DNA from: Patescibacteria group bacterium
Lineage (GTDB): Bacteria; Patescibacteriota; JABMPQ01
Length of the DNA: 58,583 bases
NCBI GenBank assembly: GCA_018818965.1
Contig: JAHJQX010000018.1
Location: 1 to 58,583, forward strand
Direction of reading: 5' to 3'
Shown in pieces: positions 1,967-51,262 of the stretch. Both the position numbers and the translations under genes were made by a program. Numbering within the stretch: position 1 is the stretch's first letter; every line of letters starts with the position of its first letter. A model generated the notes under the pieces. That model was given only the letters and a program-made list of their open reading frames with translations, was not told where the DNA came from and ran no database searches.

Positions 1967-4900
1967 ATGGAAAAAATTACCGCATGGCCTAAAACAGTAA
2001 AGGCTTTGTTAGGCATCACATTTTCTTTCACCCTGCTGGCAGGGTTGTTTTATTACTCCCTCGCTCAACTTGATCAGTCACCGGCCAGCGTTGATAAGGG
2101 GAATAATCTAGATTTATTAGGTTTACAAGCCAAAGTAGGAAATGGTTTGGAATATTCCCTCGACAAAACCACCCAGAGAGTCAATTTTATTACCACCACC
2201 GATCGAAATTTACCCGTTAGTATGAAACCGAGCGCCAATCTCAATTCCGGTTCGGTGGCGGATCAATTTATGGCGGAGTACGGTGGGTATTTTGGTCTCA
2301 ATAACTCTTCCCAGGAATTAGTAAAAATTAGGGATGAAGCAGACAAATTGGGCATGAGCCATGTTCACTTTGGCCAAAAACACGCTGGCGTTCCTGTCTT
2401 TGGTGGGCAAGTAGCCGTCCATCTTAGTAAGGATTTGGCAGTCACTTCCGCCAATGGTCGAATGGTACCTAATATTAATGTTGACACCAAGTCTAAAATA
2501 TCCAAAGAGGAAGCGACTAGTAAGGCTAAGGGATATTGGCAACAGCAGTCTCGGCCAGGCGATCCCGAAGTACGGAAATCTAATTTATATATTTTAAATA
2601 AGGGGTTACTAGAGAACAAATCCGACAATAATAATTATCTTGTTTGGGAGGTTGATCTGTACTTGGAGGAGCCCAATGAGCATGAATATTTCTATATTAA
2701 TGCTAAAGATGGCAATCTTGTTTACCAAATTTCTGGCATCCAACAAGCTGTCAATCGACGAATTTGGGATTGTACCCTTGGTGTTTTTACAGGCGATTGT
2801 TATATAGATACTCCGTTTGGAGGCTACATATATGGTCGATCAGAGGGGCAACCGACTAGAGGAACGAATCCCGGAGTCGGTGGAACTGATACTGATGATT
2901 TATATAATTTTACTGGCAGCCTCCATAATTACTATGCCAGCAAGTTTTCTCGCAATGGCGCCAATAATCAAGGGGGGATGGGTGATGGTTCGGCCACTTT
3001 TCCTACTAGTAGCACCTCTGGTTTGACTTATATTGATTATCACTATCTTGAACCGGACGACTCGGGCAGTTGTCCCAATGCTTTCTTTAATTCTGCCAAC
3101 TCAATTCGCTTTTGCCAAACTTATGTCACAAGCGATATTGTCGGCCACGAATATGCTCACGCTGTTAATTATTTTACTATTCGCTCGGATGCTGGGAATC
3201 CCGCTGGGCTTACTTACTCTGGTGAATCGGGAGCGTTAAACGAAAATAATTCCGACGTTTTTGGTGAGGCCTTTGAATATTACTACGAAGGCAGTAACAA
3301 CTGGGAAATTGGTGAGGATCTAGCAGCCGGAGCTTCCCGCAGCATGGCCAATCCTCCTAAATATAATTATAATCTAGGAACTAGCACACCTTATCCAGAC
3401 AGATTTTATCACTCTGGCTATTATTGTGGAAGCAGCGATGGTGGCGGGGTGCACATTAACAGCTCGGTGCCTAATCATGCTGCTTATTTGCTAGCAATTG
3501 GTGGTACATTCAATGGTTGTACTATCAGTGGTATTGGTCGAGATAAAGAAGAAGCTATTTTTTACCGAGCCCAGACCAATTATTATACTACTAGCACTGA
3601 CTTCAATGGAGCTTACAGCGCGTTGCTTTCTGCTTGCGGCGATCTTTATGGATCGACCAGCGCGGAGTGTGTGGCTACGCGCAAAGCTCTCCAGTCAGTA
3701 GAAATGGATCAAGAGGGCGCTTGTAGCAGCACTGCTCGTACTACCCCGGTTTGTGCTGACACCACCGGTCCTAGTATTTCTAGCCAAAGTCCAGCCAGTA
3801 GCGCCGTCGCTGTTGCCAGTGACACCAACATTTCCTTCGAAGTAGACGATAGCGTTCCGGGGGTAAGTTTGGGTAGTTTAAGCGTGACGGTCAACGGGGC
3901 GAGCGCTGTCTCGGGAGGGGCATTACAGTCGGGTTATTCTGGCTCAGTAGATGCTGATGGTTCTGGTGGTTATAATGTTGTTATCAATCCCGATAACGAT
4001 TTTGGCAATGGCGAAACCGTTACGGTAGTTGCTAGTGTTGCTGATGATAATGGCAATGCTACCTCGGCTACTTGGTCATTCAAAGCTATCAATATTGATC
4101 CCAAAATACTTACCACCTCTGGGCCAGGAGAAGTAACTCGCTTACAAGCCTATGACCGGCGAGGGAGCGCGATTGGTTCTGAGATAGGCAGTCTTTTCCC
4201 GACAAGTTATACCGGGGGAGCCGGTATAGTGCCGATTGACCAAAGTAACAATGGCGTTAAAGACCAATTCCTCATCTTTGCCGCTAGTAATGGTGGACCG
4301 CAAGCACGCGTGATGGGATTACGAGAGGATGGCTCCACCATTCTTAAAGGTCAGATGTTTGTTTTTGATAGCAGTATCCGCGATGGTTTATCTATGGTAG
4401 CTGGTGACTTTGACAACGATGGCTACGAGGATGATGCCGCCGCCTGCCTGACAGGTGATCGGGCTCCGGTAGTCAGAATTTATAAAGATGCAACTGGCAT
4501 AGATGGCTGGGTGAAACTTGGTGAATTCACCGCTCCCTTTGGTGCGGTTGGTTGCAATGTCGGTACTTTCCAATATGATACTGACGCCCCTGAAATTTTG
4601 GTCGCTCCTCATCATGGTCCGGCCGATCCCAAAGTCTACATTTACACTACTGGTGGTACCCTGAAAAAAGAATTCTCAGCTTACGGAGCCGGTGTAACTA
4701 ATGGTCTGACCCCTTCTGGCATCGAAGACAGAATTTACACTACTCCCAATAATGGTTCTTCTCAGATCAATGCTTTTGACAGAGATGGAGCGCGCAAAAA
4801 TTTCTGGTGGGCCTATGCCGAACATGTTCGTGGTGACTTTAAAAATGTTCCGGGCGATATTGACTTGGATGGTAAAGATGAAGTCCTTATCTCTCCTATT

Positions 4901-5041
4901 GGAGCTAATGGTCCCCAGGTCTTAGCGTTTGAACCGACTGGCAAATGGCGCACTTGGCCCAATTTCTTTGCTTTTGGCGATGAGACGCTGCGCAATGGGG
5001 TGGGAATCGCTGTCGTCGATAATTTTCACGGACAGAACTAA
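1967..5041 (+). CDS. M4 family (thermolysin-like) metalloprotease: FTP-like propeptide, Ig-like domain and GGP/FG-GAP-like C-terminal repeats
   Basis: GHEYAHAV zinc motif (HExxH), ESGALNENNSDVFGE, GGGVHINSS; Ig-like DTTGPSISSQSPASS; NGGPQARV and DFDNDGYED repeats; N-terminal hydrophobic segment. Confidence 0.93.
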   Translation: MEKITAWPKTVKALLGITFSFTLLAGLFYYSLAQLDQSPASVDKGNNLDLLGLQAKVGNGLEYSLDKTTQRVNFITTTDRNLPVSMKPSANLNSGSVADQFMAEYGGYFGLNNSSQELVKIRDEADKLGMSHVHFGQKHAGVPVFGGQVAVHLSKDLAVTSANGRMVPNINVDTKSKISKEEATSKAKGYWQQQSRPGDPEVRKSNLYILNKGLLENKSDNNNYLVWEVDLYLEEPNEHEYFYINAKDGNLVYQISGIQQAVNRRIWDCTLGVFTGDCYIDTPFGGYIYGRSEGQPTRGTNPGVGGTDTDDLYNFTGSLHNYYASKFSRNGANNQGGMGDGSATFPTSSTSGLTYIDYHYLEPDDSGSCPNAFFNSANSIRFCQTYVTSDIVGHEYAHAVNYFTIRSDAGNPAGLTYSGESGALNENNSDVFGEAFEYYYEGSNNWEIGEDLAAGASRSMANPPKYNYNLGTSTPYPDRFYHSGYYCGSSDGGGVHINSSVPNHAAYLLAIGGTFNGCTISGIGRDKEEAIFYRAQTNYYTTSTDFNGAYSALLSACGDLYGSTSAECVATRKALQSVEMDQEGACSSTARTTPVCADTTGPSISSQSPASSAVAVASDTNISFEVDDSVPGVSLGSLSVTVNGASAVSGGALQSGYSGSVDADGSGGYNVVINPDNDFGNGETVTVVASVADDNGNATSATWSFKAINIDPKILTTSGPGEVTRLQAYDRRGSAIGSEIGSLFPTSYTGGAGIVPIDQSNNGVKDQFLIFAASNGGPQARVMGLREDGSTILKGQMFVFDSSIRDGLSMVAGDFDNDGYEDDAAACLTGDRAPVVRIYKDATGIDGWVKLGEFTAPFGAVGCNVGTFQYDTDAPEILVAPHHGPADPKVYIYTTGGTLKKEFSAYGAGVTNGLTPSGIEDRIYTTPNNGSSQINAFDRDGARKNFWWAYAEHVRGDFKNVPGDIDLDGKDEVLISPIGANGPQVLAFEPTGKWRTWPNFFAFGDETLRNGVGIAVVDNFHGQN

Positions 5042-5061
5042 ATAACAAATACAAAATAAAA

Positions 5062-8000
5062 ATGAAAAAATTGTCAACATCGCCCCGCTGGGTAACAATT
5101 GGTGGAAGTTTGGTTTTAGGTGCGGTTTTATTGGGGGGAGTGCTTTTTTATACTCAAGCAAGGTTATCAACCGCTCAAGCAGAGGAGTCTCTAATTTCAG
5201 CTAGTCCGGCTGTTCTGGCAAACAAAGGATTAGATTATAAAGTAGATCGTAGTACCGGTCAGGTCGATTATATCGCTAGCCAGACTGGCAGTATCCCGAT
5301 CGAGCTAACAGGGTTAGCTGAGCTAAGTTCTCAGACAGTAGCTGATCAATTCCTAGCTGAATATGGTAGCTACTTTGGCTTGCGTGATCCAGCCACAGAA
5401 CTAGCTGTAGTCGAGAACAAGCAAGACAAACTAAAGATGAGTCACGCTGTCTATAACCAGCTGTACAAAGGCCTACCCGTTTTTGGTGGTCAGCTGATCG
5501 TTCATTTAGACAGTACAAATGCAATCCAATCGGCTAACGGTCAAGTCATTCCCAATGTTGACCTTGATGTTAATCCCAAGATCAACCAGGAAAGTGCAGC
5601 CGATAAGGCCAAGCAGAAGTGGCAAGAGCAGTTTAAGCTAAATGAAGCGCAAGTAATCTCCACTGGCTTGAAAGTATTCAATAGAGGTCTTCTAGAAAAC
5701 AAATCTGGCCAACCCAACCAGCTAGTGTGGGAAATTGAATTATATGACAAAGGTTCTCACCAGCACGAGTACTATTATATTGATGCCCAGCGAGGAGATT
5801 TAATATATCAGATTACTGGTCGCAAGGATATTTATCGCCGGACCACTGATTGTTCTCGCGGTAGTTATTCCTGTGACCTTGATATTTTAAATGGCGGTTA
5901 TTACTACGGTCGTTCTGAGGGTCAACCGGTTCGGGGAGCTAATCCCTTATATGGTCTGACTGATGTTGATGATCTCTATGATATGATGGGGTCAACTCAC
6001 CAGTATTTTTCTGATACCTATGGCCGGGACGGTGCCAACGACCAAGGAGGCCTGGGTGATGATGTCTATAGCGCCTACGGCAATACCGATGGCTATACTT
6101 ATATTGATTACTATCCCATCGATCAAGGCTGTCCCAATGCCTACAACGATGGCTTTTCGATTAACTTTTGTGAAGGCTTAGTTTACAACGACGTGGTGGG
6201 TCATGAGTACGGACATGGGGTGGTGAATTTCTCTGTTTCTAATGGGTTGACATATGCTTATGAGTCAGGCGCACTTCACGAAGCTTACGCCGATATTTTT
6301 GGCGAAGCATTGGAGTATTATCGTACTGGGGCTAATGACTGGTTGATGGGAGCAGAGATAAATGTTCCTGGCTTGAGTTCGCCAATCCGTAGCTTAATTG
6401 ATCCTGGTAGTGTAAATAGTGGTCTGGGCTTTGGCCCCGAAACGTTCTACGATTCTAATTTTTACTGTGGTAGTGGTGATGGCGGTGGTGTTCATCATAA
6501 CAGCACGGTAGTATCCCACGCAGCTTATCTGATGGCAATGGGCGGCACTCATAATGGTTGTACCATTAGTGCTATTGGTCGAGACAAAGAGGAACAAATC
6601 TATTATCGAGCGTTAACTACTTATTTTACTAGCAGCACTGATTTCAATGATGCTTATACTGCGCTCAACTCGGCTTGTACTGATCTCTATGGTTCAGCTA
6701 GTGACGAGTGCGTGAATACCCGCCAAGCTTTACAGGCAGTAGAGATAGATCAGGGTGGAGCTTGTAGTAGTCAAGCGCGCACGACGCCAATTTGTGCCGT
6801 CTCTACCACTAGTTCACCCCCGACCATCACTAACCAAAGTCCAGCTGATGGTGATACTGTAGTGGACAAAGATAGTGATATTTATCTTGAAACACATAGC
6901 AATGCCATTGGTATAAATCCCAGTAGTTTAAATGTTACCATTGAAGGTCGGGCAATTATTTCCAGCGGGTTACCACAGACAGGACATGATGTAACATTTG
7001 ATTACAATAACTCCGGTGGTTATGACATCACAATTAATCCCAATAGTAGTTTTAGTTATGGACAATCAGTGCAGGTAGTAGCTAGGGCGGCTGATTATAA
7101 CGGCAACCTTGTTTCTTCTACTTGGTCATTTACTGTGGTTGATATTGATCCCAAAATTCTTTCTACCTCTGGTCCCGGCGAAATTACTCGTTTACAAGCT
7201 TATAATCGTCAAGGAAGTAAAGTTGGTTCCGAGATTGGTGGTCTTTTTCCCACTAGCTATACGGGAGGAGCCGGGATAGTAGCCATTGACCAAAGCAACA
7301 ACGGCGTTAAGGATCAATTTTTAATTTTTGCTGCCAGCAATGGTGGTCCGCAAGCGCGGGTGATGGGTTTGCGCTCTGATGGCTCGACCGTACTCAAGGG
7401 GCAAATGTTTGTTTTTAACAGCAGTATCCGTGATGGTTTATCTATGGTAGCTGGTGACTTTGACAGTGATGGTTTTGAAGATGATGTGGCGGCTTGTTTG
7501 ACGGGAGATCGTGCACCGGAGGTGAGGATTTATAAAGATGCCACCGGAACAGATAATTGGCAACTGCTTAATAGATTTACGGCTGCTTTTGGCAGTGTCG
7601 GCTGCAATCTTTCTACCTTTCAATATGACACTGGCGTTGTCGAGTTGTTAGTTACTCCTCATCATGGTCCCGCTAGTCCCAAAGTGTATATTTATACTGT
7701 CGGCGGTACTCTTAAGAAAAGATTTACTGCTTACGGATCGGGGGTAACCAATGGCCTGACCCCTTCTGGTATCGAGGATCGTATTTATACCACTCCTAAT
7801 AACGGTTCTTCCCAGGTGTTGGCGTTTGACAGAAATGGCACCCAGAAAAATTTCTGGTGGGCTTACGCTGAGCATGTCCGTGGTGATTTTAAAAACGTTC
7901 CTGGTGATATTGATTTAGACGGTAAAGATGAGATTCTAATTTCTCCGATAGGCGCAAATGGTCCTCAAGTGCTAGCCTTTGAAGCTACTGGCAAGTGGCG

Positions 8001-8091
8001 CACTTGGCCTAACTTTTTTGCCTTTGGCGATGAGACACTGAGAAATGGAGTGGGGATTGCGGTGGTAGAGAATTGGCACGGGGTGAATTAA
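5062..8091 (+). CDS. M4 family metalloprotease, tandem paralog of the preceding gene
   Basis: GHEYGHGV, ESGALHEAYADIFGE, GGGVHHNST; collinear with the 1967-5041 product along its full length. Confidence 0.93.
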   Translation: MKKLSTSPRWVTIGGSLVLGAVLLGGVLFYTQARLSTAQAEESLISASPAVLANKGLDYKVDRSTGQVDYIASQTGSIPIELTGLAELSSQTVADQFLAEYGSYFGLRDPATELAVVENKQDKLKMSHAVYNQLYKGLPVFGGQLIVHLDSTNAIQSANGQVIPNVDLDVNPKINQESAADKAKQKWQEQFKLNEAQVISTGLKVFNRGLLENKSGQPNQLVWEIELYDKGSHQHEYYYIDAQRGDLIYQITGRKDIYRRTTDCSRGSYSCDLDILNGGYYYGRSEGQPVRGANPLYGLTDVDDLYDMMGSTHQYFSDTYGRDGANDQGGLGDDVYSAYGNTDGYTYIDYYPIDQGCPNAYNDGFSINFCEGLVYNDVVGHEYGHGVVNFSVSNGLTYAYESGALHEAYADIFGEALEYYRTGANDWLMGAEINVPGLSSPIRSLIDPGSVNSGLGFGPETFYDSNFYCGSGDGGGVHHNSTVVSHAAYLMAMGGTHNGCTISAIGRDKEEQIYYRALTTYFTSSTDFNDAYTALNSACTDLYGSASDECVNTRQALQAVEIDQGGACSSQARTTPICAVSTTSSPPTITNQSPADGDTVVDKDSDIYLETHSNAIGINPSSLNVTIEGRAIISSGLPQTGHDVTFDYNNSGGYDITINPNSSFSYGQSVQVVARAADYNGNLVSSTWSFTVVDIDPKILSTSGPGEITRLQAYNRQGSKVGSEIGGLFPTSYTGGAGIVAIDQSNNGVKDQFLIFAASNGGPQARVMGLRSDGSTVLKGQMFVFNSSIRDGLSMVAGDFDSDGFEDDVAACLTGDRAPEVRIYKDATGTDNWQLLNRFTAAFGSVGCNLSTFQYDTGVVELLVTPHHGPASPKVYIYTVGGTLKKRFTAYGSGVTNGLTPSGIEDRIYTTPNNGSSQVLAFDRNGTQKNFWWAYAEHVRGDFKNVPGDIDLDGKDEILISPIGANGPQVLAFEATGKWRTWPNFFAFGDETLRNGVGIAVVENWHGVN

Positions 8092-8112
8092 GTTTTTGTG
8101 AAAGTATGAACT

Positions 8113-8142
8113 AAAGGGGCGATTATGATTTCGCCTCTTTTT
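8113..8142. terminator. Intrinsic terminator between convergent genes
   Basis: AAAGGGGCG-attatgattt-CGCCTCTTTTT hairpin with T tract. Confidence 0.6.
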
Positions 8143-9298
8143 GATTGGACAACTTTTTGCTACCGGTAAAGTATTCCTTGAGGACGAAAATTATTACTAG
8201 CATTCCGATCAGAGCAATTGGCATTACGTGGCGTAGTTCTACGCCGGAATAGACTAAGGCAGCAGCTGATAGAAGAGCAACCAGTCCACCGACATCCCAA
8301 CCCGTCTCACCAAAAGTCTGAAACCAAAGTCGGCTACGGCTTTTTTGCGCTAGGTTGTAATAGCCTGTCTCAGTCGGCACGTTGAAAAAGCAAAGAGCCA
8401 GAGCCATAACGACTTCGAAAATTATGATTGCTAGGATATCAGAAATAAAAAACGAACGAGCGATAATAACAATCGTCAGCAAGACTCCAGCGATGAGAAT
8501 ATTTATCCAACCCTTACCCTTGTCAGTCAAATGTCCCAGAAGGAGAGAGAAAACAATCATCAGTAAAAGTTCCATCCCCATTAACCAACCAAAGATGGAA
8601 ATTTCGCCTACTAGGATAAATAATACAATTATCCAGAGAAATTCGTGAGCCGTATAAAGTAAACTCCAGCCCGCGTAAACCCAAAATCCGTGATGATCAG
8701 TTTTCTTAAAAGCCTGGCTGTAGTTTAATTTTATATCTTTTGGGATATTGGGGGTAAAAAGAAGGGGGAAAATAGCCAAGATCATAACAAATATTGTCAC
8801 AAAATAGATTGCCCCAAAACCAAAACGATCAGCCAGGAAGCCACCTAAAATTGGAGCCGCCGCCGCCATTAGAGTTATAAAGGATTCACGTGCTCCTAAC
8901 TGCTTACCGCGATGTTCGTTGTCGCCTAAGGTAGTGAAAAAAACATGATAGGGTAGCCAATAGAGGTTATCGATAATGGCAAAATAGACAATAAAAGCTA
9001 ACAGCCAAAACCCTAGGCTTTCCACCTGGGCGATAATCGCAAAAATACCGGGATAGAGAAGAGTACCAATTATTAATCCCTTCTTGATACCGATTGCCTG
9101 AATTAATTTTAAGGCAAGCGGCCTAACTACCAGTCTAGCTGTGTGCACTGCTGCCCAGATTAGCAGTACTATGGGCAAAGATAAACCTTGCTGCAGGAAA
9201 TAAATTGCTCCGAAAATATAAATAACATTGTCACCAAAAGCCACCAAGCCGGCATGGAGGTTGAGAAGGTTAATATTTTTATTCTCCAGAAATCCCAT
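8123..9298 (-). CDS. MFS transporter
   Basis: 391 aa, about 12 hydrophobic segments, MFS-like loops (GGFLADRFGFG). Confidence 0.8.
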   Translation of the reverse strand: MGFLENKNINLLNLHAGLVAFGDNVIYIFGAIYFLQQGLSLPIVLLIWAAVHTARLVVRPLALKLIQAIGIKKGLIIGTLLYPGIFAIIAQVESLGFWLLAFIVYFAIIDNLYWLPYHVFFTTLGDNEHRGKQLGARESFITLMAAAAPILGGFLADRFGFGAIYFVTIFVMILAIFPLLFTPNIPKDIKLNYSQAFKKTDHHGFWVYAGWSLLYTAHEFLWIIVLFILVGEISIFGWLMGMELLLMIVFSLLLGHLTDKGKGWINILIAGVLLTIVIIARSFFISDILAIIIFEVVMALALCFFNVPTETGYYNLAQKSRSRLWFQTFGETGWDVGGLVALLSAAALVYSGVELRHVMPIALIGMLVIIFVLKEYFTGSKKLSNQKEAKS

Positions 9299-9476: not shown

Positions 9477-12230
9477 ATGCTAAAGAAGGCTTTTTGTCCT
9501 CTGATTAGCGCTGTAATCGTTGTCGCCTTTTTGTTTAACCTGGGCTTGATAGTCACAAAACAAGCACAAGCGGCGACTGTTTATATAGATGCCGATAATG
9601 TTAATCCTGGCTCAGGCACTGCAGAAGATCCTTTTCGCTCAATTGGCCAAGCAGCGAATGTTTCTTCTGCCGGTGATACCCTTCTAATAGACGGGGGAAC
9701 TTATAATAACGCTAACCAGACGGCCAGTCCTTTTCCGATCACAATAAATAAGGAACTGATAATCCAAGGGGTAGACAGAGACTCAGTAATAATTGATGCT
9801 GGATATGGTACTAGCAACATATTTAATCTTTCCATAACCGGTGATATTTCAATCGAAAATATTACTTTTCAGGGCTACGATCAAAATATTGGTGGACGAG
9901 CGCTCAATATAACTCTTGGCGGTGGTGTTATCGGTGTTAATAATTGTAAATTTGATGGGCAGACTCTTAGTTGGTCGCCAATAATTACTAATATAAGTAA
10001 TGGAGCTACGGTCAATATTCACCATTCTGAGTTTGTGGACAATAAATCAGAAGCAGTGCATTTTAATCGTGTTACTGACAGCGCCAACGTAAATTTTTAT
10101 AACAACCTTGTACATAGTACAACTGGTTCGGTTTTAGGTATGGGGCCGATTGTTGGCGCCTTTAATCCCGATAACGGCACCTTAAACGCCTCATTTTACA
10201 ACAATATTATTAGAGACCAGGAGAAAGGAGCAGTCATTTTCAACTGGTCAGGCTCAGCTACTACTCTGGGGTCTATCTATAATAATGTCTTCATCGGTAA
10301 TACCTATGGTATTGATGTAAATGATATTAGTACACAATCAACCATCAGGAATAATATATTTATTGATAATACCACTGCCGTTAATGGTGGTAATTTTTCT
10401 GGTACTATTGGGTCAGCTACTTCAGACTTCAATGACTTTTATAACAACACTACTGACTACTCCAGTGTGACTGGTGGAGCTGGCGACATGTCTGATGACC
10501 CAGTCTTCATTAGCTATACTACAGGTATGGGGATGGATGAGATGAACCTCCGTCTTCAATCTAGCACTACTCTCATTGATGCCGGGACTAATGATGATGC
10601 TCCCACAACTGACTACGATGATAATCGTCGTCCTTTTGGCTCTGTTGTTGATATGGGAGTTTATGAAATGGACTATACTCCGCCAGAAATAGGCAGCCAA
10701 TTACCGGCTGACGGCGAGACGGGGGTTGATCGTGAAAGATCAATTTCTTTTCATGCACAGGATAATGATACTGGCTTGGATACAGGTTCAGACGCCATCG
10801 TCGTTAATGTATCAGGGTCAGTATCTGGATCTGTCGCCGGTGATATCGAAATTTTCCCTCCCACCGATGGAGCCGAGGTGACCGATGAATTTATTATAAC
10901 TTTTGTGCCACACAGCCCTTTTAGTTATAGTGAAGTAATAACAGCTGAAGTTAGTGTGATCGATATCGCCTACGAGCCTAACACTGCTACTTCTATCTGG
11001 ACTTTCACTATCGGAGATGAGCCAAGACCAGAACCAGATCCGGAGCCAGATCCAGATAATGAGGAAACAGAGAATCAGAATCAAAACCAAAATCAGCTGC
11101 CGGCGCCAGAAAATGGTTTTATTGTCACTTCACCAGCTGGCAGCGGTGGACCCCATTATCGGCTGTATAAAGCAGACGGAACTTTATTGTCATCTTTCTT
11201 TGCCTATGACCAATATTTACGTGGGGGCTTTAAAGCTTTCCCGGCCAATATTAATGGCGTTGGTGGCGATGAAATAATTACAATTCCCGGTTGGGGATTA
11301 GGGCCGCACCTACGGGCTTTCACCCAAAGTGGTCAGGAAATTACCTCCTTTATGATTTATGACCCCGGTTTTCGTGGTGGCCTCCAGGGCGCAAAGGCTG
11401 ATTTTGACGGCGATGGTCGGGAAGAAATTATCACCGCTCCCTCTGGCGAGGGTGGACCACAAGTCCGCGTTTTCCGCTATCGTAACGGCGTTTTTGAAAT
11501 AGTTACTCAGTTTATGGCCTATAGTAACGTTTTTCACGGTGGAGTGAATATAGCGACTGGCGACTTAACTGGTGACGGTGTGCCAGAGTTAATAACTGTT
11601 CCCCGCTATGGTGGTTCGGCTAACATTCGGATTTACCAATACAACAATGGCCAGTTTGACTTGCTTGATTGGGCGATTGTTTATAATGAACGTTTTCACG
11701 GTGGTGCCAATTTGGCCACTGGCGATTTAAATGGAGACGGTAGAGCTGAATTAGTGGTTGCTCCTCGGAGTCAAGGTGGACCCAATGTTCGGGTATTCAG
11801 TCTCAATGCCGATAACAAAATCCAAGAAAAAGATAATTTTCTGGCTTATGACTCTACCTACCGCGGTGGAGTCGCTTTGGCCACTGGTGATGTTGATTAC
11901 GACGGCGATGACGAATTGATTACCGCTCCGGCTAGCGCTGGTGGTTCTAATATTCGTGTCTACCAACACCGCGATGGTGATTATTCACAGTTACTCGATT
12001 GGTTTATGGTCGGGGGCGATGATAGTACTTTTCGTAGCGGTCTCAATATTCAGGCTAGCGATCTTAATTTAGACGGCCGGGCTGAGATTGTGGCTTCTCC
12101 ACTGCAGGGAGGACCACGGGTTAGAGTTTATGCTTTAACTGGCAGTGAAATAGCTTTATTACATGGATTCTGGGCCTACGACGAAGGAAGCGTACGGAGC
12201 GATATTAGTATTAATCTCGGCCAACGCTAG
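9477..12230 (+). CDS. Secreted right-handed beta-helix protein with Ig-like domain and C-terminal GGP/FG-GAP-like repeats
   Basis: Signal peptide; VYIDADNVNPGSGTAEDPFRSIGQAANVSSAGDTLLIDGGTY opening typical of DUF1565/pectate-lyase-like helices; later GGPHLRAF, DFDGDGREEI, GGPNVRVF, DLNGDGRAEL repeats; EPDPEPDPDNEETENQNQNQNQ linker. Confidence 0.85.
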   Translation: MLKKAFCPLISAVIVVAFLFNLGLIVTKQAQAATVYIDADNVNPGSGTAEDPFRSIGQAANVSSAGDTLLIDGGTYNNANQTASPFPITINKELIIQGVDRDSVIIDAGYGTSNIFNLSITGDISIENITFQGYDQNIGGRALNITLGGGVIGVNNCKFDGQTLSWSPIITNISNGATVNIHHSEFVDNKSEAVHFNRVTDSANVNFYNNLVHSTTGSVLGMGPIVGAFNPDNGTLNASFYNNIIRDQEKGAVIFNWSGSATTLGSIYNNVFIGNTYGIDVNDISTQSTIRNNIFIDNTTAVNGGNFSGTIGSATSDFNDFYNNTTDYSSVTGGAGDMSDDPVFISYTTGMGMDEMNLRLQSSTTLIDAGTNDDAPTTDYDDNRRPFGSVVDMGVYEMDYTPPEIGSQLPADGETGVDRERSISFHAQDNDTGLDTGSDAIVVNVSGSVSGSVAGDIEIFPPTDGAEVTDEFIITFVPHSPFSYSEVITAEVSVIDIAYEPNTATSIWTFTIGDEPRPEPDPEPDPDNEETENQNQNQNQLPAPENGFIVTSPAGSGGPHYRLYKADGTLLSSFFAYDQYLRGGFKAFPANINGVGGDEIITIPGWGLGPHLRAFTQSGQEITSFMIYDPGFRGGLQGAKADFDGDGREEIITAPSGEGGPQVRVFRYRNGVFEIVTQFMAYSNVFHGGVNIATGDLTGDGVPELITVPRYGGSANIRIYQYNNGQFDLLDWAIVYNERFHGGANLATGDLNGDGRAELVVAPRSQGGPNVRVFSLNADNKIQEKDNFLAYDSTYRGGVALATGDVDYDGDDELITAPASAGGSNIRVYQHRDGDYSQLLDWFMVGGDDSTFRSGLNIQASDLNLDGRAEIVASPLQGGPRVRVYALTGSEIALLHGFWAYDEGSVRSDISINLGQR

Positions 12231-12253
12231 TGTGCTAGTAAACTAATTTTTCT

Positions 12254-12288
12254 AAAGGCTGTCCTCGGCTAATTGGGCAGTCTTTTTT
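12254..12288 (+). terminator. Intrinsic terminator
   Basis: AAGGCTG...CAGTCTTTTTTT hairpin just after the stop codon. Confidence 0.6.
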
Positions 12289-12346
12289 TATTGCAAACAA
12301 TCTCTATAATGAACGTATAATATAGAGGGATTGCTGATTATACCCC

Positions 12347-12919
12347 ATGGTAAATTCTTACGATGATCTCACCGATGGCCAGCTAGTTGAGCTAGCTAAA
12401 GTGAAGGCAGATGATTTTGCGCCCTTAGTTGAGCGATACCAAGAGCGGCTTTTTCGTTTTGCCAAGCGGATTTCGTACTTTTCCGATGAGGATACCGAGG
12501 ATATTATCCAGGAAGTATTTATTAAGGTTTACCGTAATCTAAATGGCTACAATGATTCGTTAAAATTTTCTACTTGGATCTATCAGATTACACGCAATGC
12601 TGTTATAGATGCTATTCGAGCCAAACATACTCGTCCCCAAAATATCCACTTGGAAAAAGAGGAGATGGTGAATATTTTCAAGGCTAGTACTGATATTGCC
12701 AAGGAAACAATCGTTCGTGACCATTTTGATAGAGTTAAAAATATTATCGATGATTTGCCGTATAAGTATAAAGAAGTAATGATACTACGTTTTTTAGAAG
12801 AGAAAAGTTACGAAGAAATTATGGATATTATTAAGAAACCTAAGGGGACAGTAGCCTCACTGATCAATCGGGGACGAAAAATGTTGACTAAAGAGGCTCG
12901 CCAGCAAGGGTTAACGTAA
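12347..12919 (+). CDS. ECF-type RNA polymerase sigma factor
   Basis: DIIQEVFIKVYRNL and FSTWIYQITRNAVIDAIR (region 2), EVMILRFLEEKSYEEIMDIIKKPKGTVASLINRGRKML (region 4). Confidence 0.93.
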   Translation: MVNSYDDLTDGQLVELAKVKADDFAPLVERYQERLFRFAKRISYFSDEDTEDIIQEVFIKVYRNLNGYNDSLKFSTWIYQITRNAVIDAIRAKHTRPQNIHLEKEEMVNIFKASTDIAKETIVRDHFDRVKNIIDDLPYKYKEVMILRFLEEKSYEEIMDIIKKPKGTVASLINRGRKMLTKEARQQGLT

Positions 12920-12928
12920 TTTATTAAT

Positions 12929-13675
12929 ATGAGCAAAGCTGACAGTCAAAAAATTGTCTCCGAGATTAAGGAGAAAAACATCAAACCAGAATCGAAGTTA
13001 AAACTCAACTGGAAGAATTATATTTTGTGGGGGGCGTTAGGTATAGTCATTATTCTCGGAGCTTTGGTCTGCTCTTTAGCGATGTTGGATATAGCAGACA
13101 CTAATTTAAAGCTTTATAAAGGTTTAGGTTTTATGAAGTTTATCAGAATATTTGTAACTACTGCACCATATCTGCTAATAGCGCTGGCTGCTTTGATGTT
13201 GGGCCTGGGAGTGCTTTCTTGGCGGCAGACCAGACGTGGATACCGTCACAGTATTGTGGTCGTAGCTGGTATTATAGTACTAATCGTGACGGCTTTGGGT
13301 ATCTTGGGGCATCTAGCTCAAGTAAATAGACGACTAGAAAAAGATTTTGTGGGGCAATTTCCTCAATTACGGGGACCAGCCAAATTTGAAGAGGGGCGTT
13401 GGTTGCAGCCTGAGCAGGGTCTCTTGGGTGGTGAGGCAATAGTGGTGATCACAGAGAGAATTGATCTGCGTGATTTTGCTGACAAAGATTGGCAGATATA
13501 TTATTCTGAAGAAACTCATATACGTCCGGGGTATTTCCCTCGGGTAGGAGAGCGTATTGGAGTAATGGGTGAGGTGAAGGGCGAATCTGAATTTACTGCC
13601 TACGTTATTAGGCCACTGCCAGCTATGGACAAAAAGCTCTGGTGGAAACCAGGCCAGCGCCCCGGGGGGTATTAG
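12929..13675 (+). CDS. Membrane protein in sigma-factor operon, possible anti-sigma factor or regulator
   Basis: Three hydrophobic segments and a C-terminal soluble domain; 9 bp after the ECF sigma gene; no family recognised. Confidence 0.6.
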   Translation: MSKADSQKIVSEIKEKNIKPESKLKLNWKNYILWGALGIVIILGALVCSLAMLDIADTNLKLYKGLGFMKFIRIFVTTAPYLLIALAALMLGLGVLSWRQTRRGYRHSIVVVAGIIVLIVTALGILGHLAQVNRRLEKDFVGQFPQLRGPAKFEEGRWLQPEQGLLGGEAIVVITERIDLRDFADKDWQIYYSEETHIRPGYFPRVGERIGVMGEVKGESEFTAYVIRPLPAMDKKLWWKPGQRPGGY

Positions 13676-19150: not shown

Positions 19151-20053
19151 TTATTTTCTAATATTATAAAGTGTCTTTTTATCAAGATGCCAACGATTTT
19201 TCCAGCCACTATCATTACGACCAGCATCGAATAAAGTTGCTTTTTTTTGCCAGGCTTCCTCTAGAGCTTTAACGACAACATACGAACCTAAATTTGGTAC
19301 CTTCTCAATGTTTGATCCAGCCATAATGTATGTGTAAATGTTTTTGTATAGCAAAGAAAATGAAACCGCTTCTTTTACTCCGTCTACTATAAATGATTGT
19401 AGCGACCATTCCCAAGGTAATTGCAATAGATTACGGAATGCTTCTTGCTGTTTTTCTTCTTTGAATGATGACTCTGAGCCAAATCGTTTAACATTAAGCT
19501 CAAAAAGCAATTCCAAGTCTTTCGGCTCGTCTTTAATTATTTCAATTTGGTGTTTGTCTAGTTGGCGAATTTTTTTACGGATGTTACTTCTCGACTTTGA
19601 GCTAAATTTTTTTTGCAAGAAATCTTCAAAATCCTGATAATTTTCAAGAGACAAATAATATGTTTCGTCATAAGGTTGGTAATTTTCTAAAATTGGATCT
19701 CCATCCATAAAATCACGCAGATAAATTTTTTCGGTGATCTGACGTAAAACATGCTGGTAGAATTTAATTGCTAAAGGTTGATAATTCCTGTCTATCAGGA
19801 CGTGATTATATTCCATAAAATCCCCACCAAAATATTCTAGGAATTTATTTTTGTTATTGTATTGAAGTGGTAGTAGCCCGATTAGTTTGTTGTTAATATA
19901 ACCAGCGTAAAAAGCGAGAGGAAAATTACTAGGCGCGAAGAAAGCATATCGGAAATCCCATTCATCATAAGGGCATAGTCGTGGCGATAAACTATCCCAA
20001 CATATTTTTGCGGTGTCGATGTCAGTAACTAGTTTGAATTTTATGTCGGGCAT
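19151..20053 (-). CDS. GNAT-fold acyltransferase, BioF2/CelD (FemAB-like) type
   Basis: FSSKSRSNIRKKIRQLDKHQIEII, LFELNVKRFGSESSF, ATLFDAGRNDSGWKNRWHL; 3 bp downstream of the ATP-grasp gene. Confidence 0.7.
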   Translation of the reverse strand: MPDIKFKLVTDIDTAKICWDSLSPRLCPYDEWDFRYAFFAPSNFPLAFYAGYINNKLIGLLPLQYNNKNKFLEYFGGDFMEYNHVLIDRNYQPLAIKFYQHVLRQITEKIYLRDFMDGDPILENYQPYDETYYLSLENYQDFEDFLQKKFSSKSRSNIRKKIRQLDKHQIEIIKDEPKDLELLFELNVKRFGSESSFKEEKQQEAFRNLLQLPWEWSLQSFIVDGVKEAVSFSLLYKNIYTYIMAGSNIEKVPNLGSYVVVKALEEAWQKKATLFDAGRNDSGWKNRWHLDKKTLYNIRK

Positions 20054-20056
20054 GTT

Positions 20057-22363
20057 TTAGTTTAAAATACTGGGCTTTTCTTTATATCTTTGGATAGCAG
20101 AATTTAGCAAGTCTTCGATGAATGAAACCACTGGTATTTTAGCAATTTTTAAAATATTTTTTATTTCCTGAGTATTCCTGATCAGAGGTTGAGCTTCGAT
20201 ATTAGTGACAATTGGATTGTGATCATCATCAACTAATATTTCGACTAATGCCAAATCAGCACAACCTAGAATAGAAAATGAATCAAAAGCCATCTCGGTA
20301 ATTAAAGTATTTAACTTTCTATTGAACTTCTTCGGGGAGGAAATCTTAGCTTGGTTATTGCCGTATTGGACAATAGGGAAAGCGTTCAAATTATGAGGAG
20401 GATTTCCATAAATTAATACGTGAAAAGTTTGCCCTTTTATGTATTCTTCTAAGTAAGCTGGCGCAGTAAAGTTGTTGGTGATACTTCTGATTTTTGAAAC
20501 TACTTTATTTTTGGTTTTAATAATTTGCCAGGAGTTATTATCCATGGTGCGGGGATAATTTTGTTTTTCTCGTACTTTGACAGGAAAGTTCAGATCAATA
20601 TCAAAAGCATCAGATTCAGAATTAATAAATTCCCATTCAATAATGGGTATTTCGTGAAAGCTGAGCAGCTTTCTTGTTTTTAACGAGTCTTTTGTCAATT
20701 TGTCGCAGAATAGATCTGATCCAATAATCGGAATATTCAGAGGTTCGATCAAGGCTTGAATAGCTGATGATTCCTTATTGTAGTCATCTGTTAAATTAAG
20801 GAGTAAATGGATATTATATTCTTTAACCTTCTGTCCAAAATTGGTAAGGTCGTTAAAGTCTAGAAAAAATAATTTAAATCCCTTATTTTGCAGTTTGGTT
20901 TTTACGGATTGAGTCAATAATGAATCGGTAGCCCGACCATTTTTTTTAGGATTAATAATCCCAATATTTATACTTTGATATGCATTATGTTTTATTTTTT
21001 CTAACTTCGCTGCCTTGACGAGAAATTCTTTTTTAAAAGTAGCGGCGGCGAATTTGTTTTTCCTTTCTGTCTTACCGATTGAAGACAGTGAATGAAAACG
21101 AGCGATCTCGTAGTGCACACATTTTATTGCTTCTTCAAGATTGTCTTGAGCATCATTAAAATTATCTCCTTTAGTAGTTATCCAACCGAGAAATTCGTAA
21201 CCGTCAGGAGGGGACAGAACCGGGTCACCAATTTTTTTGTGAAATTTTAGTTCGAGAATATTTTTTTGTTTTTTAATTTCCGAATCAATTTCAAATTGCG
21301 ATAAAATTCCGGAATGTTCAGGGAGAAAGTCTTGGCTAATCAAGTAGTCGAAAGGTTTTTGGGGCTTAATTATTTTAGGAAAATTAACGCCGAGAGCAAT
21401 TTTAGCGGCGTATTCAATTAAATCAACGTGCCAAGCATAATTGATAAAAGCATGGATTTCATCTCCACCCATCCGTAGATTTACTTCAATTGGTACCGGT
21501 CCTTCATTAGTAACTTTAGCCTCAAAGTGGATGCAGCCGTTTTGGATATTAAGTTTTTCTAATGTCTCGTCAGCCATAGCAATCAGTGCCTCCTGATCAT
21601 CAATCGGTAAGTTGGAAGGGATTGAATGTCCAGTTTCCAAAAAATATGGCTCAGCTGTTTTGTCGTTATCAGAGACAGAAAAAAATTTCATTCGACCATT
21701 TTGCAATAAAATGTCGATATCAACTTCGTCTCCATCAATATATTCTTCTACTATAATGTCTAAGCCGTCAGTCAGAGCTGATTCTACTTCAGTAGAAAGA
21801 GATTTTTTGATGTATAAATAAGCGTCTTCTAGCTCCTGGGGGTTATTTATTTTAATAACATAGGCGCTACTTGAACCATAAGCTGGCTTGATAACTAAGG
21901 GAAAACGTAAATGTTTTTTTACATAATTTAGATCCTTTTTTGTCCTAACTAATTGATTTTGTGGAGTTGGTAAATTATTTTGCCGACAAAAATCGCGGAA
22001 AAGATATTTATTCCTAGCTTTTTGAGCAGTTGCGTGAGGGATGCCAATCAGATTAAAAGCGTCAGATATTTTGGAGGTTAATAGAACATCATCTTCCCAA
22101 AAGGTAATGACCCCTTCAAACATTAAATTGGGATGCTCGGAAGCAAAGGCTTTGGCTGCTTGCAAAGATTCCTGATGATTGGCGGTGTCAGCCAAAATCC
22201 AATGATCAACGTATGGCTTAGCCCAGTTTATTTCCTTATTTAGGGCAATAATAGTTAACCCGAGTTTCTTGAGTCTTTCAACAGTGAATTTTTTTTTGAT
22301 AGAGGAGCCGGTATTTACCAAAAGGATTTTTTTCCCTAAAAATTCCTTTTTGCTGTTACTCAT
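20057..22363 (-). CDS. Fused double ATP-grasp ligase: carnosine-synthase/biotin-carboxylase-like N-half and D-Ala-D-Ala-ligase-like C-half
   Basis: N-half FPLVIKPAYGSSSAYVIKI, IIVEEYIDGDEVDIDILLQNG, IEVNLRMGGDEIHAF; C-half LLLNLTDDYNKESSAIQALIEPLNIPIIGSD, FPVKVRE, PAYLEEYIKGQTFHVLIYG, IVTNIEAQP. Confidence 0.8.
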   Translation of the reverse strand: MSNSKKEFLGKKILLVNTGSSIKKKFTVERLKKLGLTIIALNKEINWAKPYVDHWILADTANHQESLQAAKAFASEHPNLMFEGVITFWEDDVLLTSKISDAFNLIGIPHATAQKARNKYLFRDFCRQNNLPTPQNQLVRTKKDLNYVKKHLRFPLVIKPAYGSSSAYVIKINNPQELEDAYLYIKKSLSTEVESALTDGLDIIVEEYIDGDEVDIDILLQNGRMKFFSVSDNDKTAEPYFLETGHSIPSNLPIDDQEALIAMADETLEKLNIQNGCIHFEAKVTNEGPVPIEVNLRMGGDEIHAFINYAWHVDLIEYAAKIALGVNFPKIIKPQKPFDYLISQDFLPEHSGILSQFEIDSEIKKQKNILELKFHKKIGDPVLSPPDGYEFLGWITTKGDNFNDAQDNLEEAIKCVHYEIARFHSLSSIGKTERKNKFAAATFKKEFLVKAAKLEKIKHNAYQSINIGIINPKKNGRATDSLLTQSVKTKLQNKGFKLFFLDFNDLTNFGQKVKEYNIHLLLNLTDDYNKESSAIQALIEPLNIPIIGSDLFCDKLTKDSLKTRKLLSFHEIPIIEWEFINSESDAFDIDLNFPVKVREKQNYPRTMDNNSWQIIKTKNKVVSKIRSITNNFTAPAYLEEYIKGQTFHVLIYGNPPHNLNAFPIVQYGNNQAKISSPKKFNRKLNTLITEMAFDSFSILGCADLALVEILVDDDHNPIVTNIEAQPLIRNTQEIKNILKIAKIPVVSFIEDLLNSAIQRYKEKPSILN

Positions 22364-22374
22364 TTTTTAAGATA

Positions 22375-22527
22375 TTAACTAATTTCAAAAATAAATAAAA
22401 AAGGCCAACACAAAATCGGCTTCTTTTGGTAAGAATTATTTAGTTGTAATAGTTCGCTTCGTTGCTTAGCCGAAAGCGGGTCAAAAAAACCTCTTCCCGG
22501 AGGTTCATCATTTTCACCCTGATTCAT
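22375..22527 (-). CDS. Small ORF (50 aa) upstream of the ATP-grasp ligase; candidate precursor or leader peptide
   Basis: Translated by hand: MNQGENDEPPGRGFFDPLSAKQRSELLQLNNSYQKKPILCWPFLFIFEIS*. Below the track's length cutoff; same strand; in-frame TAA upstream; promoter-like sequence about 37 nt upstream. Confidence 0.45.
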   Translation of the reverse strand: MNQGENDEPPGRGFFDPLSAKQRSELLQLNNSYQKKPILCWPFLFIFEIS

Positions 22528-22563
22528 TTCTGTTTTAGTAGAAGTAAATTATTCAGTACCTGA

Positions 22564-22592
22564 ATTTTAGCTAGTATTCATTCAACCGTCAA
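22564..22592 (-). promoter_or_regulatory. Sigma70-like promoter for the sORF/ATP-grasp/GNAT operon
   Basis: Minus strand TTGACG - 17 nt - TAAAAT. Confidence 0.55.
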
Positions 22593-22770: not shown

Positions 22771-23169
22771 ATGGAAGAAGAAGTCGATATTAAACAATTA
22801 ATTGCTTCAGTCCCAGAATTCAAATTTATTTGTTGGCAAAAGCAGAAAAGGGAATTTATCCAAAATATTTGGCAGCGAATGTCGATTATTTCTAATCAGC
22901 CAAGTGACATCATTGCCGAAGAGTCGACCAGCGATGAATTGGATCGTTGGCTAGATATCTGGGAACAGAAAATTAGTATAACAAGTAGAATTGGAATTAA
23001 TATTAATTCAGCAGATCCCTGGGCATTAATTCGTGTGCGGAAGGGGTGGTTGAAATCTTTTTGGCATCGATTGATCAATAAAGATTTTCTTATAAAGGTT
23101 GATGATAAGTACTACGGTATCCAAGAGGAAGAACACTGGTACGGAGTCCATATCATAGACTACAAATAA
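22771..23169 (+). CDS. Hypothetical protein
   Basis: 132 aa; stop overlaps the next start (TAATG). Confidence 0.6.
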   Translation: MEEEVDIKQLIASVPEFKFICWQKQKREFIQNIWQRMSIISNQPSDIIAEESTSDELDRWLDIWEQKISITSRIGININSADPWALIRVRKGWLKSFWHRLINKDFLIKVDDKYYGIQEEEHWYGVHIIDYK

Positions 23170-23480
23170 TGAATAAGATAAGCAGTAATTTAATCTACGA
23201 TTATAAAAAAGCAAGAACCGATGCCCGATTAGATATTTCTCGGGGCAAAGTTAAAATATTTTACCTTGCTGCAGGAATTGTACCGATCCCTTTTGGTATT
23301 AAATTAGGGCAGAATTTACCAAAACACGAAAGGGCATGTTTTGGTACAGGCTGTACAGATCAAATTAATTCTCCTGATTGTCCCAAAGATTATAAAAGAT
23401 ATATGAAAGCCATAGAAGGATATGCTGGGAATTATAATTCAGAGATCGCTAGGTATTATGGGTTAGATCTGCTCGAATAA
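23169..23480 (+). CDS. Hypothetical protein with Cys motif CFGTGCTDQINSPDC
   Basis: 103 aa; translationally coupled to the preceding ORF. Confidence 0.6.
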   Translation: MNKISSNLIYDYKKARTDARLDISRGKVKIFYLAAGIVPIPFGIKLGQNLPKHERACFGTGCTDQINSPDCPKDYKRYMKAIEGYAGNYNSEIARYYGLDLLE

Positions 23481-49034: not shown

Positions 49035-50042
49035 ATGAATTTAAACGAAAGTTTAGTAAAAAATCTAGAGCAAGCTAATCTCCAAGACAAAAAAGTAGTC
49101 CTTTTGCCTCATTTTTGCCTTGATCACTCAGTGAAGGTCAATGGTAGTCCGCAGGCATTTCTCCAAGAAGCTATCCAGGTAGTCCAACGAGGCGGTGGCA
49201 ACATTGTTACGGAAAATCGTCTGTCGGCAGGCGGTAAAGCTGTCAATTGCGCTAAGGCCTTAGCCACTCTAGGTGTGCCGGCAAGCATAATTGTTAAAAC
49301 CAGCCCCTTAGGCTATAAATTATTACAAGAATTACTGCCGAGCCAGAATATTGATCTTTCCCATGTTAGTCAAGATGGCAAATTGGCCTCAACGGCCGTT
49401 ATCGAGCTCGAAGGAGCAAATGTGATGCTCAGTGATCCAAGTTCGACGACAGAATTTGAACCGGAACAGCTAACTGATCAGGACTGGGAACTAGTTAAGA
49501 CAGCTGACGCAGTTATGATTTCCGATTGGGGATTGAACGGTCGAGGGACAGAATTAGCTAGGAAAATATTCCAGATTGTAAAACAAGGCGGTAAAGGCAA
49601 GACATTCTTTGATCCGGGTGATCCAGTAGTGAAAGGCGATAAAATGGCAGAAGACATTACTAGATTACTAAACGAAGTTCTAGGAAAAGACTTGGTTGAC
49701 AGTCTGAGTGTAAATGAAGCTGAGGTGGATCAATATGGCGGGCGAGATAATCTACGCAAGTTAACCCGAGTTGACTTACATACCAAGAGCTTTGGTCAGA
49801 GTATTGAAGCTGAGCTAGAAACAGACCAAGTGGCGACTTTCGATATCCAGCCATTACGCCTGACGGGCGCCGGTGACAGTTGGAACGCGGGTAATATATT
49901 GGGCGAGCTGATAGGTCTAGAAAATGAAGAGCGGTTGTTATTGGCTAACGCGGTGGCAAATTATTATATCGCCAGCCAAGATGGCCAGCTAGCAACAAGA
50001 GACGAATTGATTGAGTTTTTAAAGCAAAATAAACAGATATGA
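49035..50042 (+). CDS. PfkB-family carbohydrate kinase
   Basis: GGKAVNCAKALATLGVPASII, VNEAEV, LTGAGDSWNAGNILG. Confidence 0.85.
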   Translation: MNLNESLVKNLEQANLQDKKVVLLPHFCLDHSVKVNGSPQAFLQEAIQVVQRGGGNIVTENRLSAGGKAVNCAKALATLGVPASIIVKTSPLGYKLLQELLPSQNIDLSHVSQDGKLASTAVIELEGANVMLSDPSSTTEFEPEQLTDQDWELVKTADAVMISDWGLNGRGTELARKIFQIVKQGGKGKTFFDPGDPVVKGDKMAEDITRLLNEVLGKDLVDSLSVNEAEVDQYGGRDNLRKLTRVDLHTKSFGQSIEAELETDQVATFDIQPLRLTGAGDSWNAGNILGELIGLENEERLLLANAVANYYIASQDGQLATRDELIEFLKQNKQI

Positions 50043-51253
50043 ATAACCTAGAACAGTACGAATCGATAGTCGGCTCAGAAGTCATTGTCCGGATCAAAGA
50101 AAAAGCTAAACCGCTACTAAACAGGCACATCGTTTGCATTAATTCTACTTTTTCAGGCGGGGGAGTGGCGGAGATGTTAAATAGCGCGGTGTTTTTATTC
50201 AATAAACTAGGCCTTCGTTTTGGTTGGCGCATTTTGCAGGGGTTTCCCAGCTTTTTCAATATCACCAAGAAACTCCATCATGCTTTGCAAGGAGAAAAGA
50301 TCAATCTTTCCGAGGAAGAAAAGAAAATATTTTATGAGACCAACGAGCGTTTTGCCGCTTTCACTCATTTACCTCACGATTTGGTCATTATTCATGATCC
50401 CCAGCCCTTACCTTTAATAGATTTTTTCGAGAAAAGCCAGCCTTGGATCTGGCGCTGTCACGTGGACATGTCCGAGCCAGATCCTGCTACTTGGAATTAT
50501 CTTAAGGGCTTTGTTGAAAAATATGACGAAATTATCGTCTCACAAGAAGAGTACAAACAGAATTTATCAATTCCCCAGAACCTTATTCATCCAGCTATTG
50601 ATCCGCTGACGCAGAAAAATGAAGATATTTCTGAGATTGAGGCCGAAAAATATCTAAAGAAGTTTGGCATTAATCTTAATAAGCCGATTATCACTCAGGT
50701 CTCACGCTATGATAAATGGAAGGATCCTAAGGGGGTAGTAGAAATATTTAAAAAGGTGCGTGCACAGGTTGATTGCCAGTTGGTTTTATTGGGTTCATTT
50801 GCGGCTGATGATCCGGAAGGACAGGAAACATTCGAGGAAATTGAAAAATGCATCGCCGACTGCGGTTACGAGGATGATGTCATTCTGCTAACGGTCAGTG
50901 ATGATATCTTAGTAAATTGCTTACAACGAGCCGCCGCCGTGGTGATCCAAAAATCTCTGCGCGAAGGGTTCGGTCTGACGGTAGCGGAAGCACTTTACAA
51001 GGGTACGCCGGTAATAGCTTCTCGAGTTGGTGGCATACCACTGCAGATAACTGATGGCAAGAGTGGCTTTTTGCACGAACCGCAGGACTTAGAAGGCTTT
51101 ACTGCCAGCGCTATAGAACTTATTAAAGATACCGATCTACAAAAAAAACTAGGAGAACAGGGCAAAAAACACGTTACAGAGAATTTTCTTATCACCCGCT
51201 ATATTGAAGATTGGCTAGATTTGTTCAACCGGCATTTGTCAACCAGCAATTAA
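50039..51253 (+). CDS. treT: Trehalose synthase-type glycosyltransferase (GT4, TreT-like)
   Basis: INSTFSGGGVAEMLN, HDPQPLPLIDF, WIWRCHVDMSEPD, VSRYDKWKDPKGV, SLREGFGLTVAEAL; 4-nt overlap with pfkB gene. Confidence 0.85.
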   Translation: MNNLEQYESIVGSEVIVRIKEKAKPLLNRHIVCINSTFSGGGVAEMLNSAVFLFNKLGLRFGWRILQGFPSFFNITKKLHHALQGEKINLSEEEKKIFYETNERFAAFTHLPHDLVIIHDPQPLPLIDFFEKSQPWIWRCHVDMSEPDPATWNYLKGFVEKYDEIIVSQEEYKQNLSIPQNLIHPAIDPLTQKNEDISEIEAEKYLKKFGINLNKPIITQVSRYDKWKDPKGVVEIFKKVRAQVDCQLVLLGSFAADDPEGQETFEEIEKCIADCGYEDDVILLTVSDDILVNCLQRAAAVVIQKSLREGFGLTVAEALYKGTPVIASRVGGIPLQITDGKSGFLHEPQDLEGFTASAIELIKDTDLQKKLGEQGKKHVTENFLITRYIEDWLDLFNRHLSTSN

Positions 51254-51262
51254 CTACTACCC

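Follow-up and report, generated by a model that had tools for sequence, protein, structure and literature searches.

On the minus strand of the 58,583-nucleotide stretch of DNA analysed here (the window), which belongs to a 1.2-Mb Patescibacteria MAG, lies a two-gene operon that encodes a 768-amino-acid double ATP-grasp protein (20057-22363) and a 300-amino-acid double-GNAT protein (19151-20053). We read this operon, with confidence that is evenly balanced, as a lineage-specific, reduced form within a family centred on Patescibacteria that makes small peptides without the ribosome and is marked by an enzyme in which an L-amino-acid-ligase (LAL)-like half is fused to a Ddl-like half. The operon itself is real: just 3 bp separate the ligase gene from the downstream GNAT gene, as the first-pass annotation had it, and family and fold matches support that annotation's broader proposal of a peptide-ligase operon with LAL/carnosine-synthase-like and Ddl-like halves and perhaps a di- or tripeptide product. 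The features of the locus are as follows.

19151..20053, minus strand: Fem-like double-GNAT transferase, predicted to be aminoacyl-tRNA-dependent (PF13480, AlphaFold model, Foldseek)
20057..21061, minus strand: C-half of the double ATP-grasp protein (residues 435-768), Ddl-like (PRK01372) and catalytically degenerate (column loss)
21062..22363, minus strand: N-half of the double ATP-grasp protein (residues 1-434; PF13535, PF18603 and 3vot matches)
22375..22527, minus strand: 50-aa ORF, putative leader or detached tail, whose start resembles the ligase tails of relatives
22404..22505, minus strand: leader region with two weak hairpin-plus-T-run elements inside the 50-aa ORF (folding z -3.3)
22564..22592, minus strand: sigma-70-like pattern TTGACG-17-TAAAAT, not beyond chance

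The letters of the proposed promoter are present, but such patterns are no more frequent than expected (2 sites observed versus 1.9 +/- 1.5 in shuffles), and the promoter call is not confirmed. PADLOC gave no match to a defence system. Elsewhere in the window, two divergent small ORFs of 132 and 103 aa without a Pfam match occupy 22771-23480 (+), and seven relatives from the order gave no homologue of the former; two neighbouring paralogues of ~1000 aa at 1967-8091 (+) are apparently secreted thermolysin-type metallopeptidases with C-terminal repeat regions; and adjoining genes at 50039-53443 (+) resemble a trehalose-synthase-type glycosyltransferase and a fused OtsA-OtsB trehalose-phosphate synthase/phosphatase.

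Judged by its sequence, the N-half is probably an L-amino-acid ligase that joins amino acids into a dipeptide. It matches ATP-grasp_4 (PF13535, 6.5e-28) and LAL_C2 (PF18603, 2.1e-11), thus combining an ATP-grasp fold with the LAL C-terminal subdomain, and it resembles the ligase structure 3vot in sequence (phmmer, 1.7e-28) and fold (Foldseek TMt 0.88), with further matches to BacD and RizA. The conserved ATP/Mg residues are all in place (K159, E206/E207, E281, E293, N295 and R297), and 100% of 61 near-invariant family columns are retained both in the window protein (L001) and in its 53%-identical relative L002.

The C-half matches the Ddl profile PRK01372 over residues 485-755, so that the earlier claim of two different ATP-grasp ligases stands for fold, but not for catalysis. 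Across 59 aligned full proteins, both halves mostly keep their ATP-grasp residues, and the window protein and L002 are the clear exceptions. In the window C-half, the replacements K598>R, R706>L, E721>N and N723>E remove the catalytic Lys, Arg, Glu and Asn of the Ddl ATP-grasp site and the glycine-rich loop is altered, while in L002 E721 and R706 are gone and position 598 is S. Only 57% of the 54 near-invariant C-half columns survive in these two proteins, compared with at least 83% in other family members, and strong degeneration is limited to this pair, which share 65% identity in the N-half but 36% in the C-half. The tree groups them with L023 and L016 (support 100/100), which also belong to the members with the next-highest degree of C-half alteration. 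Catalysis by the C-half has thus probably been lost in the window lineage; because its reading frame is intact in both proteins, the domain itself appears to have been retained after the probable loss of its chemistry.

The 300-aa partner is predicted to be an aminoacyl-tRNA-dependent Fem-type transferase. Sequence searches match it to broad families only (Acetyltransf_6, PF13480, 4.2e-10, with a FemAB_like match below cut-off), and a profile of its family found no Fem protein among PDB sequences. Its AlphaFold model (pLDDT 94.9) has the double GNAT fold of the FemABX family, with FemX as the top Foldseek match (9.4e-12) and the highest TM-scores to the aminoacyl-tRNA-dependent peptide synthases Sba18/Sbb17 (Sba18 TM 0.66/0.69); by fold it resembles FemX-type aminoacyl transferases, in keeping with the suggestion of a FemAB-like GNAT. 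Near the C-terminus, a W284-K285 pair that is nearly invariant in the family lies, by inspection, at the motif position where Fem enzymes have F-K and where the catalytic lysines FemX Lys305 and DhpH-C Lys329 act (PMC12945691). We infer a possible equivalence of K285 and FemX Lys305 from motif position; the hhalign alignment to the genome's own FemX homologue is not significant (probability 5.7). An alternative interpretation takes the GNAT for an ordinary N-acyltransferase that uses acyl-CoA to cap the ligase's dipeptide product, as might be suggested by a best Pfam match to the broad Acetyltransf_6 family and by the presence of acyl-CoA-using tandem GNATs among the fold matches, but we consider this unlikely, given that FemX and the aminoacyl-tRNA-dependent synthases rank above those GNATs or exceed them in TM-score and that the W-K pair occupies the site of the Fem F-K.

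A scan of 85,462 species genomes recovered ~60 near-full-length relatives of the fusion, nearly all from Patescibacteria, the other carriers being a few archaeal and Elusimicrobia MAGs; among sampled Patescibacteria genomes, 15/381 have it. No published description of the family was found in literature that lay largely outside subscription journals, and the LAL-Ddl fusion family is apparently widespread and undescribed. Gene neighbourhoods were compared in 66 loci, four of which are duplicate records. The same GNAT family occurs near the ligase in 17 of the 66, directly downstream in 14 of those 17, and its distribution on the ligase tree needs 7-9 changes, so it has been joined or lost repeatedly. 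Other recurrent neighbours are a MurL-like protein (13 loci; NF041275, 5e-7), a SET-domain protein (10), a LysA-like PLP decarboxylase (8), a CPS/PylC-like ATP-grasp protein (8), an L-Ala-D/L-Glu-type epimerase (6; 2.5e-59) and a DegT-like protein (3). Further LAL enzymes are clearly present beside the fusion in L013, L039 and L057; the corresponding cluster of eight loci also includes a second fusion copy (L018) and probable split-fusion pieces (L025 and L063). At L018 (Magasanikbacteria), the two fusion copies (5995-8376 and 10917-13304) flank a MurL-like gene and are followed by a SET-domain gene. These neighbours probably form a toolkit for ribosome-free short peptides, probably containing D-amino acids, and the free-peptide epimerases in particular argue for free short peptides and against a ribosomal precursor. 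From this set of neighbours the window operon has the GNAT only.

The Fem fold of the GNAT, and the fact that Ddl, MurL and L-Ala-D/L-Glu-epimerase relatives are wall enzymes (PMC5808125), could instead indicate that the operon makes or edits peptidoglycan peptides, such as a cross-bridge or stem variant, with the Fem-like enzyme adding to a wall peptide. We regard this as improbable, because the host genome already holds Mur ligases, a MurI-like glutamate racemase, a canonical FemX homologue (6snr, 9e-33) and a separate tandem Ddl with HGxxGEDG motifs, and because the operon is patchy within the phylum and absent from the same-genus genome G001 (79% complete, with a contig that ends at the would-be site). 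The tandem Ddl also rules out the 768-aa ligase as the genome's Ddl; it is a 772-aa fusion with one HGxxGEDG-like motif per domain, encoded at L101:4720-7038 (-) on contig C18, where a riboflavin-biosynthesis gene flanks it on one side and a glycerol-kinase-like gene on the other. The host genome showed no ordinary single Ddl, and neither did G001, G003, G005 and G007.

Upstream of the ligase, the 50-aa ORF is present with exactly the sequence first proposed. Its length is borderline with respect to chance, as an ATG-started ORF as long arose in 38/1000 dinucleotide shuffles of the 407-bp intergenic stretch and one with any start codon in 99/1000, and its codon usage is gene-like (0.138 nats/codon in frame, with the other two frames negative; the GNAT gene averages 0.129). 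The first-pass annotation had named lack of the ORF in homologous loci as a refuting outcome, and this outcome was observed: tblastn detected no homologue as a separate gene in 84 loci, including that of L002. The start of the ORF (GENDEPPGRGFFDPLSAKQ), which contains DEPPG, is similar to the tails found at the N-termini of ligases in relatives (in L043, for instance, ...DQDEPPGGNSF...), and its best tail-similarity score was reached by 0/500 shuffles and 1/446 other gene starts. [DE]-rich tails with PPG, PPD or PPS precede the first ATP-grasp domain in L011, L012, L022, L026, L035, L043 and L064; PP[GSDPN], a motif picked post hoc, occurs in the first 40 residues of 7/66 ligases versus 10/455 other genes (Fisher p 0.003), and these tails possibly act as a translation-stall or docking motif. 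Since its start is similar to ligase tails and it has no separate homologue, the 50-aa ORF is better read as a detached ligase tail or leader ORF than as a substrate. A simple frameshift or assembly error is an unlikely cause of its separation from the ligase: an in-frame TAA stands 6 nt ahead of the ligase ATG, so that joining the two would take more than one change.

Predicted folding of the leader is stronger than that of shuffled sequences (z -3.3), and the two weak hairpin/T-run elements lie at 22488-22505 and 22404-22420. In L002, the leader holds its own sORF, unrelated to the 50-aa ORF (282/1000 shuffles score as well), and after it, immediately ahead of the ligase, a terminator-like hairpin; translation-linked attenuation is possible for this reason. 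A conserved attenuator was rejected, terminator-like hairpins being no commoner before relatives' ligases (4/65) than before other genes (31/422), as was a known RNA element, every Rfam match being far below the gathering score.

The microviridin-type logic raised by the first-pass annotation, under which an ATP-grasp enzyme would cyclise the 50-aa peptide through side-chain esters or amides and the GNAT would acetylate it, draws on the small ORF with gene-like codon usage just upstream of the ligase and on the occurrence of graspetide clusters in CPR bacteria (PMC8939145), but it is very improbable: the 84 loci searched yielded no conserved precursor and no leader/variable-core pattern, GNAT-linked Falkowbacteria-type loci leave no room for a precursor (a few to ~50 bp separate the ligase start from the upstream gene), both ligase halves fall into free-amino-acid ligase families of LAL and Ddl type with MvdC/MvdD (MdnB/MdnC) absent among the 11 Pfam and 25 NCBIfam matches listed, the GNAT is Fem-like, and relatives' neighbours are free-peptide epimerases and a decarboxylase.

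Under the preferred reading of ribosome-free small-peptide synthesis, family, fold and conserved residues suggest that the N-half would use ATP to turn an amino-acid carboxylate into an acyl-phosphate and couple it with a second amino acid, so that a free dipeptide results. Most relatives have an intact active site in the C-half; here that half has lost its ATP/Mg-binding residues and may be kept as a structural or substrate-docking domain. The Fem-like GNAT, with its predicted fold, would then move a further amino acid from aminoacyl-tRNA to the dipeptide amino group, and the 50-aa ORF would supply no substrate, being either a leader or what is left of a ligase N-terminal tail after its detachment. 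The analysis itself establishes homology, predicted fold, loss of residues and the conserved adjacency of the two genes; the substrates, the use of tRNA, the order of the steps and the product are conjecture. More tentatively, the LAL-Ddl fusion may define an undescribed, Patescibacteria-wide class of ribosome-free pathways to short D-residue peptides that draw on MurL-like and dipeptide epimerases and on Fem-like tRNA-dependent enzymes, with the window C-half a pseudo-enzyme whose step has been taken over by the Fem-like partner.

The genomes of Patescibacteria are very small, most of these bacteria are uncultured, and to our knowledge few of their metabolites have been described; a recurrent locus that combines a peptide ligase with epimerases and a Fem-like partner would give the group a concrete peptide product open to testing. 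A fused tandem ligase with one degenerate half also provides a clean case for how pseudo-enzyme domains arise.

Among known systems, microviridin-type graspetide clusters likewise pair an ATP-grasp enzyme and a GNAT with a nearby small ORF, but the window lacks their conserved precursor, its ATP-grasp families differ and its GNAT is Fem-like. The window C-half matches Ddl profiles and relatives' C-halves keep the ATP-grasp residues, whereas in the window the HGxxGEDG region is replaced and the catalytic K, R, E and N are lost. With FemX/MprF-type and Sba18/Orf11-type transferases the GNAT shares the predicted double-GNAT fold and, close to the C-terminus, a Lys that follows an aromatic residue; in contrast to them, it is encoded beside an amino-acid ligase, and it is 9-14% identical to them. 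The enzyme classes of the engineered route that combines TabS with a T. maritima epimerase (PMC13338154) recur beside the fusion in relatives, there as natural Patescibacteria gene clusters, although the window operon holds no epimerase. The N-half is like the L-amino acid ligases BL00235/3vot, BacD/YwfE and RizA in sequence, fold, LAL_C2 and ATP/Mg residues; unlike these ligases, the window enzyme is fused to a Ddl-like second half and stands in a gene context with a Fem-like GNAT, to which relatives' loci add peptide epimerases.
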